DNA of 37,668 bases from Candidatus Parcubacteria bacterium (GTDB taxonomy: Bacteria; Patescibacteriota; Minisyncoccia; UBA6257; 2-01-FULL-56-20): NCBI GenBank assembly GCA_027355945.1, contig DAIEHA010000009.1, forward strand, positions 1-37,668, in the 5' to 3' direction. The position numbers were made by a program, and so were the translations under genes. This document shows, piece after piece, positions 4,556-7,150 of the stretch (its first letter is position 1; each line of letters opens with the position of its first letter). The notes beneath the pieces were generated by a model. The model saw only the letters and a program-made list of their open reading frames with translations. It was not told where the DNA came from and did not search any database.

Positions 4556-4583
4556 TTGACATCTTTCCGGGTTTTGCTATACT
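4556..4583 (+). promoter_or_regulatory. Strong promoter of the ribosomal-protein operon
   Basis: TTGACA (4556-4561), 16-nt spacer, TATACT (4578-4583) with TG one base before it (extended -10). It is the best sigma-70-type match before rplC. Transcription should start near 4590, giving a leader of about 180 nt. Confidence 0.87.
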
Positions 4584-4609
4584 CTCAACCAAGGTTTCCT
4601 CGGAGTTTT

Positions 4610-4672
4610 ATGCGAACAACCATCATTGCGGGAAAACGGGATTCATGTATCCTTCACCGCTGCCCTTCGTAA
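4610..4672 (+). CDS. Possible 20-residue leader peptide
   Basis: An ATG at 4610 opens 20 codons (MRTTIIAGKRDSCILHRCPS) ending at TAA in the loop of the 4663-4675 hairpin. GGAG stands 4 nt before the ATG. A ribosome on it would disrupt the long-range helices of the leader and could set the attenuator. The codon content shows no obvious amino-acid bias, and such a short frame may be chance. The SD-like element would be of no use if all 16S copies lack the anti-SD. Confidence 0.25.
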   Translation: MRTTIIAGKRDSCILHRCPS

Positions 4673-4707
4673 GGGAGCTGTGTTCCTTAGGTGGTTCGAG
4701 CAGACTC

Positions 4708-4730
4708 CGGGGTGCGCCCCGATTTTTTTT
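4708..4730 (+). terminator. Intrinsic terminator inside the rplC leader (attenuator)
   Basis: CGGGG (4708-4712), loop TGCG, CCCCG (4717-4721), then A and eight T. It lies 41 nt before the rplC start and after the operon promoter, so it must be read through or blocked for expression. Confidence 0.85.
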
Positions 4731-4771
4731 GAGCTCGATCAAACGGTCAAGCTTCGACATTATTCAAAGCG

Positions 4772-5335
4772 ATGTCTTTCATACTCGGCAAAAAACTTAG
4801 AATGACCCAGATCTGGAAGGACGGCAAAGTCGTTCCGGTTACGGTAATCCATGCGGAACCCAACAAGGTCTCCCTTGTTCGCAATCAAGAGCGTGACGGG
4901 TACGAGGCCGTGCAGGTTTCCCTTGGCAAAAAGAAGCGCGAATTCCGCAATCTTTCCCATGAACCCGTTGTGATCGCTGATTTTTCTGCGGATGCAGAGG
5001 TTACTGTTGAGGCATTCAAAGAGGGGGAGCGGGTCCGCGTGAGCGGCGTGATGAAGGGAAGGGGCTTTCAGGGCGTGGTAAAGCGCCATAATTTCGCAGG
5101 CGGTCCCAAGACCCACGGACAGAAGAATCGCTTCCGCCACCCCGGTTCCATCGGCTCCACCGCGTTCCAGCGCGTCGTTCCCGGAAGGCGCATGGCAGGA
5201 CATATGGGTGTCACTCGCATCACTTTGAAGAATCTCATCGTTGCGGCGGTGGACAAGGAGCACAATCTGATCTTCCTCAAAGGAGCGGTCCCCGGCGTCA
5301 CCGGAGGGCTTATAGAGATTTCAAATCTTAAATAA
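4772..5335 (+). CDS. rplC: 50S ribosomal protein L3
   Basis: A 187-residue L3, an early-assembly 23S-binding protein reaching to the peptidyl transferase centre. The beta-barrel part is at the N-terminus (FILGKKLRMTQIW). The long loop carries the family signature GPKTHGQKNRFRHPGSIGS, and the C-terminal half has PGRRMAGHMG. It is a little shorter than the usual 205-210 residues. It is the first gene of the operon: rpsJ (S10), which usually precedes it, is not here. The start is preceded by ATTATTCAAAGCG, with no Shine-Dalgarno sequence. Expression probably depends on the leader attenuator. Confidence 0.97.
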   Translation: MSFILGKKLRMTQIWKDGKVVPVTVIHAEPNKVSLVRNQERDGYEAVQVSLGKKKREFRNLSHEPVVIADFSADAEVTVEAFKEGERVRVSGVMKGRGFQGVVKRHNFAGGPKTHGQKNRFRHPGSIGSTAFQRVVPGRRMAGHMGVTRITLKNLIVAAVDKEHNLIFLKGAVPGVTGGLIEISNLK

Positions 5336-5362: not shown

Positions 5363-6007
5363 ATGAAGATTGACGTCTATAATCTGAACAACGAAGTCGT
5401 GGGCTCGATCGATCTCCCGAAGGAGGTGTTCGAGGCGAAGTGGAATGCCACCCTCGTGAAGCAGGTGCTCGATGCCCAGGTCGCGAATCGCCGTGCACCG
5501 TGGGCGCATGTCCGCGATCGCAGCGAGGTTTCGGGCGGAGGAAAGAAACCCTGGCGTCAGAAGGGCACGGGCCGTGCGCGACACGGATCGACCCGTTCAC
5601 CGCTCTGGGTGGGTGGAGGAAAGGCCCATGGCCCTCGGAACGACAAGGATTATTCCCAGAAGGTGAACAAGAAGATGAAGCGGGTGGCGCTCTTTTCTGC
5701 GCTTTCACGGAAGGCGAAGGATGGCGAGATCAGGATCTTCGATTCCCTCGCGCTCGAAAAGCCCAAAACGAAAGAGCTTGCAGGCGCGCTTCATGGTGCG
5801 ATCTCCCTTCCGAAGGGCGGAACGCGTTATGATGTCCTTCTTGTTTCCGATGTGACCAACAAGAACCTTTTCCGTGCGGCATCCAATCTTGTGAAGACGA
5901 AAGCGATCGCCGCGGATTCGCTCAATATTTTCGATATTTTGAACCATAAGAATCTTTTCATCGATAAAGAGGCGGTCGAAGCCATCGGAAAGCATTATAA
6001 GATCTAA
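5363..6007 (+). CDS. rplD: 50S ribosomal protein L4
   Basis: A 214-residue L4, which binds 23S domain I and lines the exit tunnel. The tunnel-loop signature GGGKKPWRQKGTGRARHGS lies around residues 57-75, followed by PLWVGGGKAHGP. Length is normal. In other bacteria L4 regulates the S10 operon, so it is a candidate ligand of the leader upstream (inference). It follows rplC by 27 nt; the bases before the ATG (GGGAACACCACC) lack a Shine-Dalgarno sequence. Confidence 0.96.
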   Translation: MKIDVYNLNNEVVGSIDLPKEVFEAKWNATLVKQVLDAQVANRRAPWAHVRDRSEVSGGGKKPWRQKGTGRARHGSTRSPLWVGGGKAHGPRNDKDYSQKVNKKMKRVALFSALSRKAKDGEIRIFDSLALEKPKTKELAGALHGAISLPKGGTRYDVLLVSDVTNKNLFRAASNLVKTKAIAADSLNIFDILNHKNLFIDKEAVEAIGKHYKI

Positions 6008-6021
6008 TACGCACCACTCCT

Positions 6022-6303
6022 ATGGCGAACACACTCCTCATCAAGAAGCCTTGGGTCACCGAGAAAGCGACTGCGGTCGCCGAAAAGGCCAACCAGTATA
6101 TTTTCCTGGTTGACAAGGGTGCAACGAAACCCGAGATCAAGAAAGCCGTCGCGGCCCTTTATAAGGTTGAGGTGACGGCCGTGAACGTAGTGAATCGCCC
6201 GCCCAAGCGGAAGCGTTTCGGGGGTTCGCGCAAAGGCGTTCAGGAAGGATACCGCAAGGCCATTGTGACCGTAAAAAAGGGACAGAAGATCGACATCCAC
6301 TAA
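6022..6303 (+). CDS. rplW: 50S ribosomal protein L23
   Basis: A 93-residue L23, located at the tunnel exit and the docking site for trigger factor and SRP. Visible features are PWVTEKATAVAEKANQYIF at the N-terminus, the helix KKAVAALYKVEVTAVNVVNR (position about 38-58), the basic loop PPKRKRFGG and YRKAIVTVKKGQKID at the C-terminus. Length is normal for the family. It lies 14 nt after rplD; the leader ACGCACCACTCCT has no Shine-Dalgarno sequence. Confidence 0.96.
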   Translation: MANTLLIKKPWVTEKATAVAEKANQYIFLVDKGATKPEIKKAVAALYKVEVTAVNVVNRPPKRKRFGGSRKGVQEGYRKAIVTVKKGQKIDIH

Positions 6304-6307
6304 TCCC

Positions 6308-7150
6308 ATGAAATCCTATAAGCCGACAAGCGCTTCGCGCCGCAGCATGACCTCCCCGGATTACCGCGTCCTTACGAAAGGCGTGCGTCCCCATAAGCCG
6401 CTCCTCAAGCGATTGAAGACCCATAGCGGAAGGAATTCCCAGGGCCGCATCACGACCCGTCATCAGGGCGGAGGGAACAAGAAGCTTTATAGGATGATCG
6501 ATTTCAAGCAGAATCGCATGAACCAGAAGGCGGTGGTTCAGAGCCTTGAGTACGATCCTTATCGTACGGCGTTCATCGCCAAGGTTACGTACGATGACGG
6601 CGTTATCTCATATATCATTGCGCCCGAAAAGCTCAAAGTGGGCGATGAGATCGTCACTGCGGAATCTGCTCCTTTCAAGACCGGCAATAGGATGCTCCTC
6701 AGGAACATTCCTGTCGGCACGCAGGTCTATAACATCGAGATGATGCCGGGCCGCGGCGCCCAGCTTGCCCGTTCGGCAGGTCTTTATGCAGAAGTGCTTG
6801 CGAATGCCGATGGATATACCGACCTTAAGCTCAATTCGGGAGAGGTGCGGCGCGTGCCTTGGACGTGCCTTGCATCGATCGGTCAGGTTTCGAATGCGGA
6901 GTGGAGCCTCGTTACCCTTGGCAAAGCCGGCCGTTCACGGTGGCTCGGCATCCGTCCTACCGTACGCGGAAGCGCGATGAACCCCGTCGACCACCCGTAT
7001 GGAGGAGGCGAAGGCGCCCAGCCGCGCGGTACCCGCAAGCCGAAGACGCTGTGGGGCAAGGTCACCGGTGGAAGGAAGACCCGCAACAAGAAAAAGAAGT
7101 CGAACAAATTCATCGTGAAGCGCCGCGTAAGCAAGCGCAACCGAAAGTAA
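6308..7150 (+). CDS. rplB: 50S ribosomal protein L2
   Basis: A 280-residue L2, essential for subunit joining and near the peptidyl transferase centre. The N-terminal RNA-binding part has GRNSQGRITTRHQGGGNKK; the C-terminal part has RGSAMNPVDHPYGGGEG. The His of VDHP, equivalent to E. coli His229, is kept. The next His of the usual DHPHGGG is Tyr. After it comes a lineage-looking stretch (GAQPRGTRKPKTLWGKVT) and a very basic tail. It starts 4 nt after rplW with AATCCC before the ATG. Confidence 0.97.
   Translation: MKSYKPTSASRRSMTSPDYRVLTKGVRPHKPLLKRLKTHSGRNSQGRITTRHQGGGNKKLYRMIDFKQNRMNQKAVVQSLEYDPYRTAFIAKVTYDDGVISYIIAPEKLKVGDEIVTAESAPFKTGNRMLLRNIPVGTQVYNIEMMPGRGAQLARSAGLYAEVLANADGYTDLKLNSGEVRRVPWTCLASIGQVSNAEWSLVTLGKAGRSRWLGIRPTVRGSAMNPVDHPYGGGEGAQPRGTRKPKTLWGKVTGGRKTRNKKKKSNKFIVKRRVSKRNRK

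Follow-up and report, generated by a model that had tools for sequence, protein, structure and literature searches.

A conserved transcription attenuator with a leader mini-ORF upstream of rplC in one family of CPR bacteria

The locus

The window analysed here (37,668 nucleotides) is contig 27 of a 735-kb Candidatus Parcubacteria genome. Upstream of rplC (L3) the order is promoter, a leader of about 120 nt, an intrinsic terminator and then rplC, followed by the genes for L4, L23 and L2 (Table 1). Transcription is predicted to start at about 4590, downstream of the promoter.

Table 1 Features of the rplC leader and the genes that follow it
Feature	Position	Strand	Basis
Sigma-70-type promoter TTGACA-16-TATACT, extended -10 (TGCTATA)	4556–4583	+	11/12 consensus matches
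Invariant 5′ motif CAAGGUUUCC, predicted transcript start	4590–4599	+	CAAGGUU identical in 15/15 genomes
P1 5′ strand (antiterminator)	4598–4607	+	MFE fold, shared shape, covariation and swap tests
Leader ORF, 20 codons, MRTTIIAGKRDSCILHRCPS and stop; stop codon overlaps P4 apical loop	4610–4672	+	AUG in 15/15 genomes; stop position
P2 5′ strand: UGC 4611–4613, AACCAUC 4618–4624	4611–4624	+	Shared shape, covariation and swap tests
P3 hairpin; relatives' form GRAAAACG-loop-CGUUUUC with bulged pyrimidine	4630–4652	+	Changes on both sides in 5/9 pairs
P4 hairpin CCCUU-CGU-AAGGG	4663–4675	+	Covariation; ORF stop position
P2 3′ strand: GGUGGUU 4690–4696, GCA 4700–4702	4690–4702	+	Shared shape, covariation
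P1 3′ strand, overlapping terminator 5′ arm from 4708	4703–4712	+	MFE, covariation, swap and shuffle tests
Intrinsic terminator CGGGG-UGCG-CCCCG + A + U8	4708–4730	+	Kept in 14/14 complete relatives
Second hairpin GACAUU-AUUCAAAGC-GAUGUC, rplC start codon within its 3′ stem	4756–4776	+	Loop conservation
rplC (L3), first gene of the regulated operon	4772–5335	+	Pfam PF00297
rplD (L4)	5363–6007	+	Pfam PF00573
rplW (L23), third operon gene	6022–6303	+	Pfam PF00276
rplB (L2)	6308–7150	+	Pfam PF03947 and PF00181

The hairpin that overlaps the rplC start codon is a candidate translational operator. Its loop AUUCAAAG recurs in nine relatives, carried by three unrelated stems and placed just ahead of the rplC start codon or across it, and no 23S rRNA match of weight was found for it.

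Structure of the leader

A first-pass annotation of this DNA had paired CCTCGGAGT (4598–4606) with ACTCCGGGG (4704–4712) over 9 bp. This helix, P1, is present, as are the parts of the terminator that the annotation named, CGGGG at 4708–4712 and T8 at 4723–4730. The minimum free energy (MFE) fold of the leader extends P1 to 10 bp (CCUCGGAGUU, 4598–4607, with GACUCCGGGG, 4703–4712). The last five bases of GACUCCGGGG are the 5′ arm of the terminator, and the terminator itself is absent from this fold. The duplex of the 5′ strand with the terminator arm was calculated at −20.2 kcal/mol, compared with −13.2 ± 2.5 kcal/mol in dinucleotide-shuffled leaders, 1.15% of which reach the native value. The z-score of the whole-leader fold is only −1.6, and the evidence therefore rests on conservation rather than on folding energy alone.

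The second helix had been drawn between 4613–4621 and 4690–4698, a pairing that contains an A–G mismatch. Such a helix (P2) does exist but in a shifted register, the pairing better backed by relatives being UGC with GCA and AACCAUC with GGUGGUU (Table 1). Both inner hairpins, P3 and P4, were recovered in relatives. The 3′ strand of P3 carries two substitutions here, CAUGU instead of CGUUU, so that P3 is weakened in this genome.

Conservation and covariation

A covariance-model search of 244 genomes of the order gave 15 matches to this leader (class A), never more than one in a genome; they span six genera and all belong to a single Paceibacteria-like family. All lie directly before rplC except that of G018, where the match and rplC sit at the ends of two contigs. 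In a wider, class-level sample of 384 genomes the search returned only the known members and four weak matches that overlap or adjoin unrelated coding DNA and were set aside as chance. A scan of genome contigs yielded mostly distant L3 genes and no additional class A member. In a tree built from L3 and L4 the 15 genomes form a clade with 100% support, of which G012 is the sole member without the element. Directly upstream of rplC in G012 (L010) there is a transposase-like ORF; its class A leader has been lost or replaced, or the region is mis-assembled.

Fourteen leaders share one shape, in which P1 encloses P2 and the P3/P4 junction, some with extra stems, and the mutual exclusion of P1 and terminator is conserved in the 14 complete leaders. 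In alignment A3, 80.3% of structure cells are standard pairs (45–57% for slid structures), the number of pairs changed on both sides is 16 (9.6 ± 2.0 when shuffled, with 2/500 reaching 16) and the covariation score is 0.240, against 0.194. Mutual information was higher between true than between permuted partner columns (p = 0.025), a comparison that leaves columns intact and preserves relatedness. An alignment-free swap test gave the same picture: native P1 and P2 strands pair at −28.2 kcal/mol and strands swapped between genomes at −23.5 kcal/mol, a difference with p = 0.0006 among 10 divergent genomes and p = 0.003 when each genus is represented once. Compensated indels were also seen, an additional A–U pair in P1 of G019 and G021 and an additional U with a compensating G-to-A change in G033 and G015.

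These results bear out the original proposal of an attenuator before rplC with mutually exclusive antiterminator and terminator, for which conservation of the leader and covariation in relatives had been named as the decisive points; both were found. The element thus has the conserved, mutually exclusive antiterminator and intrinsic terminator of a transcription attenuator and, lying consistently 5′ of ribosomal-protein genes with a covarying structure, the position of an r-leader. Rfam, searched at gathering and relaxed thresholds (E ≤ 0.5) with the window and with the class A loci and those of the second leader class described below, returned no ribosomal-leader match. That the leader precedes rplC without rpsJ is true of the window but not of the element in general: in G019 the rpsJ gene comes to its end a short way upstream of this leader, before its promoter.

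The leader mini-ORF

Right as it was about the attenuator, the first-pass annotation overlooked a short ORF within it. An AUG directly follows the 5′ strand of P1 in every class A genome, and in 11 of the 15 the first in-frame stop falls within the apical loop of P4. Frames 1 and 2 contribute only one such stop in 30 cases, so that 11 of the 12 loop stops are in frame 0; the dinucleotide-shuffle null has a mean of 0.72 and a maximum of 5 in 2000. The stop may be UAA, UGA or UAG, depending on the genome. The exceptions are G001, G004, G021 and G023, the frame being broken in G004, and by genus the rule holds in 4/6.

The distance from AUG to P3 is 26, 29, 41, 47 or 68 nt, which keeps one common phase in 13/15 genomes; G004 and G007 depart from it, the P3 boundary in G007 being ambiguous. 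In G018, G021 and G035 the loop length changes and the 3′ strand of P3 is read in another frame while its nucleotides stay the same, and in G018 and G035 the stop is nevertheless still in P4. It is therefore the frame and the position of the stop that are conserved, and not the peptide. A conserved peptide as the selected feature was rejected, since the encoded peptide varies among genomes, and no run of one regulatory residue or codon was shared by the leader peptides of the 15 genomes. The element has, then, the conserved short ORF, placed relative to alternative helices, of a leader-ORF attenuator.

In all 23 family genomes with a readable 16S 3′ end this end is ..GUGGAUCAAUUAAACU, with minor variants, and not ..GGAUCACCUCCUUU. 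The anti-Shine–Dalgarno sequence CCUCC is absent family-wide (16S loci L150–L152, L155–L167, L170, L172–L174 and L176–L178). The GGAG before the leader AUG, considered as a Shine–Dalgarno sequence, was rejected for this reason and is read as part of the P1 strand. Most ribosomal-protein genes in the window are without a Shine–Dalgarno sequence, ACC or CCC often preceding the AUG. One 16S gene, L154 (contig C18 of G024), has the canonical 3′ end, unlike the family, and is probably on a contaminant contig in that assembly. A literature search found no paper naming loss of the anti-Shine–Dalgarno in this family.

Other leaders before rplC

Thirteen other genomes of the family have a different leader (class B) before rplC, one per genome and never together with class A (L181–L192 and L195; in L182, for instance, at about 1501–1597). 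Its pattern is (A/G)UC-N-CUUUAAUGG...UUNCACAAGGA(U/C), the basal helix having standard pairs in 12/12 aligned, followed by AAGG...CCUU, a likely antiterminator, and a terminator. Four weak class B matches outside the family were inspected and none lies before rplC. In the L3 and L4 tree class B is paraphyletic around class A, which indicates that class A probably replaced class B at the same site. A stop codon precedes CACAAGG in 10 of the 13 class B leaders (null expectation 4.7, p = 0.001), and class B is thus likely to carry a mini-ORF as well.

Four more rplC leaders resemble neither class: L024 (G036), L037 (G029), L034 (G031) and L030 (G022). By eye, their 5′ ends, CCRAGG..., appear able to pair with the terminator arms.

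A proposed translation-coupled attenuator

It is put at an even chance that the leader couples transcription of the rplC-rplD-rplW-rplB... operon to translation of the mini-ORF by attenuation. On a leader free of ribosomes, P2–P4 would fold, P1 would zip up and sequester the terminator arm, and RNA polymerase would enter rplC. A ribosome initiating on the mini-ORF would instead mask the 5′ strand of P1 and so block the helix, and the terminator would fold; the stop in P4 would hold the ribosome clear of the P1 and terminator arms. Abundant free initiating ribosomes would then mean less ribosomal-protein synthesis and scarcity more, so that translation capacity would feed back negatively on the operon without a dedicated ligand. 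The cell may in this way set ribosomal-protein production by how often ribosomes initiate on the leader mini-ORF.

The proposal that initiation turns the operon off and its absence leaves it on comes from ensemble folding of leaders with blocked and unblocked starts. Unblocked, P1 is dominant in 13/14 leaders (median 0.91 for P1 and 0.00 for the terminator), G002 being the leader in which the terminator wins even so. When the 5′ end was blocked through AUG+14, the terminator reached 0.69–1.00 in 14/14 leaders, while a simulated ribosome at codon 6 or at the stop left P1 intact in most. The polarity, from initiation to termination, is predicted from equilibrium folding only.

The full proposal is that transcription of the rplC operon answers to the frequency of initiation on the mini-ORF and to no ribosomal-protein ligand, in a family that lacks the anti-Shine–Dalgarno and has swapped one leader class for another. 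It is put forward tentatively, at rather less than an even chance. With no anti-Shine–Dalgarno in the 16S rRNA, no Shine–Dalgarno pairing drives initiation, and this counts against the translation-coupled reading, as do the four genomes that break the stop rule and the unblocked fold of G002. The main caution against the feedback comes from class B, where a ribosome on the mini-ORF would, by the same logic, favour read-through, opposite in sign to class A. Furthermore, the 5′ CAAGGUU is invariant beyond the needs of P1 pairing and CAAGGUUUCC matches a segment of 23S domain III; together these suggest a bound factor, instead of or beside the ribosome.

Such a factor could be a ribosomal protein. 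In the classical form of r-protein leader, excess L23 (or L4, L3 or L2) would bind the 5′ end and prevent P1, so that the terminator folds, with the leader ORF then either of secondary importance or a link between repression and translation. This is possible, if on balance doubtful. The position before rplC is as expected. CAAGGUUUCC resembles a conserved segment of 23S domain III (RF02541, about 1343–1365, 'cAAGGuUUCCuggG') and is similarly arranged: the GG is paired, the U's are not, and CC begins a helix. In E. coli, L23 seeds domain III helices H49–H53 (PMC9935924), and rplW is the third gene of the operon here. The 10-nt match weakly favours L23 among ribosomal-protein ligands, at a p value of about 0.03, uncorrected for the fact that several motifs were tried; neither the exact class A P3 5′ strand nor the class B motif gave a 23S match of weight. 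Some unrelated rplC leaders in the family, such as those of G036 and G029, likewise begin CCRAGGU. Nor is CAAGGT after the -10 a general promoter feature: TGCTATAMT-N4-7-CRAGGT is present at the rplC leader of every class A genome (15/15), 38 family genomes contain it at just two further sites, both judged chance, and CAAGG(T) as a general initiator was rejected on this near-exclusivity. A ribosomal-protein ligand would, however, leave the frame-specific stop in P4 unexplained. The sign is a further difficulty, as the MFE fold places the putative 23S mimic in the antiterminator, where binding of the duplex would favour read-through; a ligand stabilising the junction closed by P1 would likewise promote read-through, whereas classical autorepression calls for the opposite.

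A leader peptide responsive to an amino acid or antibiotic, in which ribosomes stalled at particular codons decide the outcome (trp/erm logic), is improbable. The ORF does end in a hairpin loop ahead of the terminator, like trpL, and the peptides hold several Arg and Lys codons, but there is no single-residue run and the peptide changes between genomes, the 3′ strand of P3 being read in different frames (G018, G021 and G035) with its nucleotides unchanged; moreover, the strand to be occluded by a ribosome is upstream of the start codon and not opposite codons in mid-ORF.

A constitutive processing or insulation element, whose terminator merely isolates transcripts and whose pairing is incidental, would suit the unremarkable whole-leader folding energy and is very improbable in view of the covariation, the swap test, the conserved pattern of P1 and terminator excluding each other in all 14 complete leaders, and the compensated P1 indels of G019 and G021.

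Little has been described of how CPR bacteria control ribosomal-protein synthesis, and a literature search found no rplC leader reported from them. If the proposal of control by initiation is true, the operon would be set by a direct readout of translation capacity and not by a ribosomal-protein proxy. The probable replacement of one rplC leader class by another within a clade opens the turnover of regulators to study.

Comparison with known systems

The class A leader is like trpL-type attenuators in its short ORF, the stop in a leader hairpin loop and the alternative downstream helices; it differs in having no regulatory codon run, an antiterminator strand upstream of the ORF and a ribosomal-protein operon as its target. 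The E. coli ampC attenuator is under growth-rate control, ribosome binding favouring read-through. There, as would be the case here, ribosome occupancy of the start site of a short leader decides terminator formation, whereas ribosome binding to the class A leader is predicted to favour termination.

The leader of the E. coli S10 operon (L4 attenuation) is also an attenuator 5′ of an operon with rplC, rplD, rplW and rplB. It lies before rpsJ, at the head of the S10 operon, and works through a NusA-stabilised pause at the attenuator hairpin with L4 sites upstream (PMC10931766). The element described here lies directly before rplC and, unlike the E. coli leader, has a 5′-end antiterminator, an internal ORF, a place after rpsJ and no Rfam match. 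Compared by position and lineage, a candidate L4 r-leader in Archaeoglobi, rated borderline by Eckert and Weinberg (2020), is alike in lying before rplC-rplD-rplW-rplB and differs in its archaeal lineage; their list has no rplC leader from CPR (PMC7247131).

The L10(L12)4 leader (rplJL) and the L20 leader (infC operon) of B. subtilis also belong to ribosomal-protein operons and, like class A, set an antiterminator against an intrinsic terminator. An anti-antiterminator stabilised by the protein is part of the L10 model (PMC10931766); here no separate anti-antiterminator was seen and the antiterminator encloses the sensor region, class B appearing closer than class A to the L10(L12)4-type design. 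Among these systems the class A element works like a leader-ORF attenuator, and it is only a candidate member of the protein-binding r-leader class.
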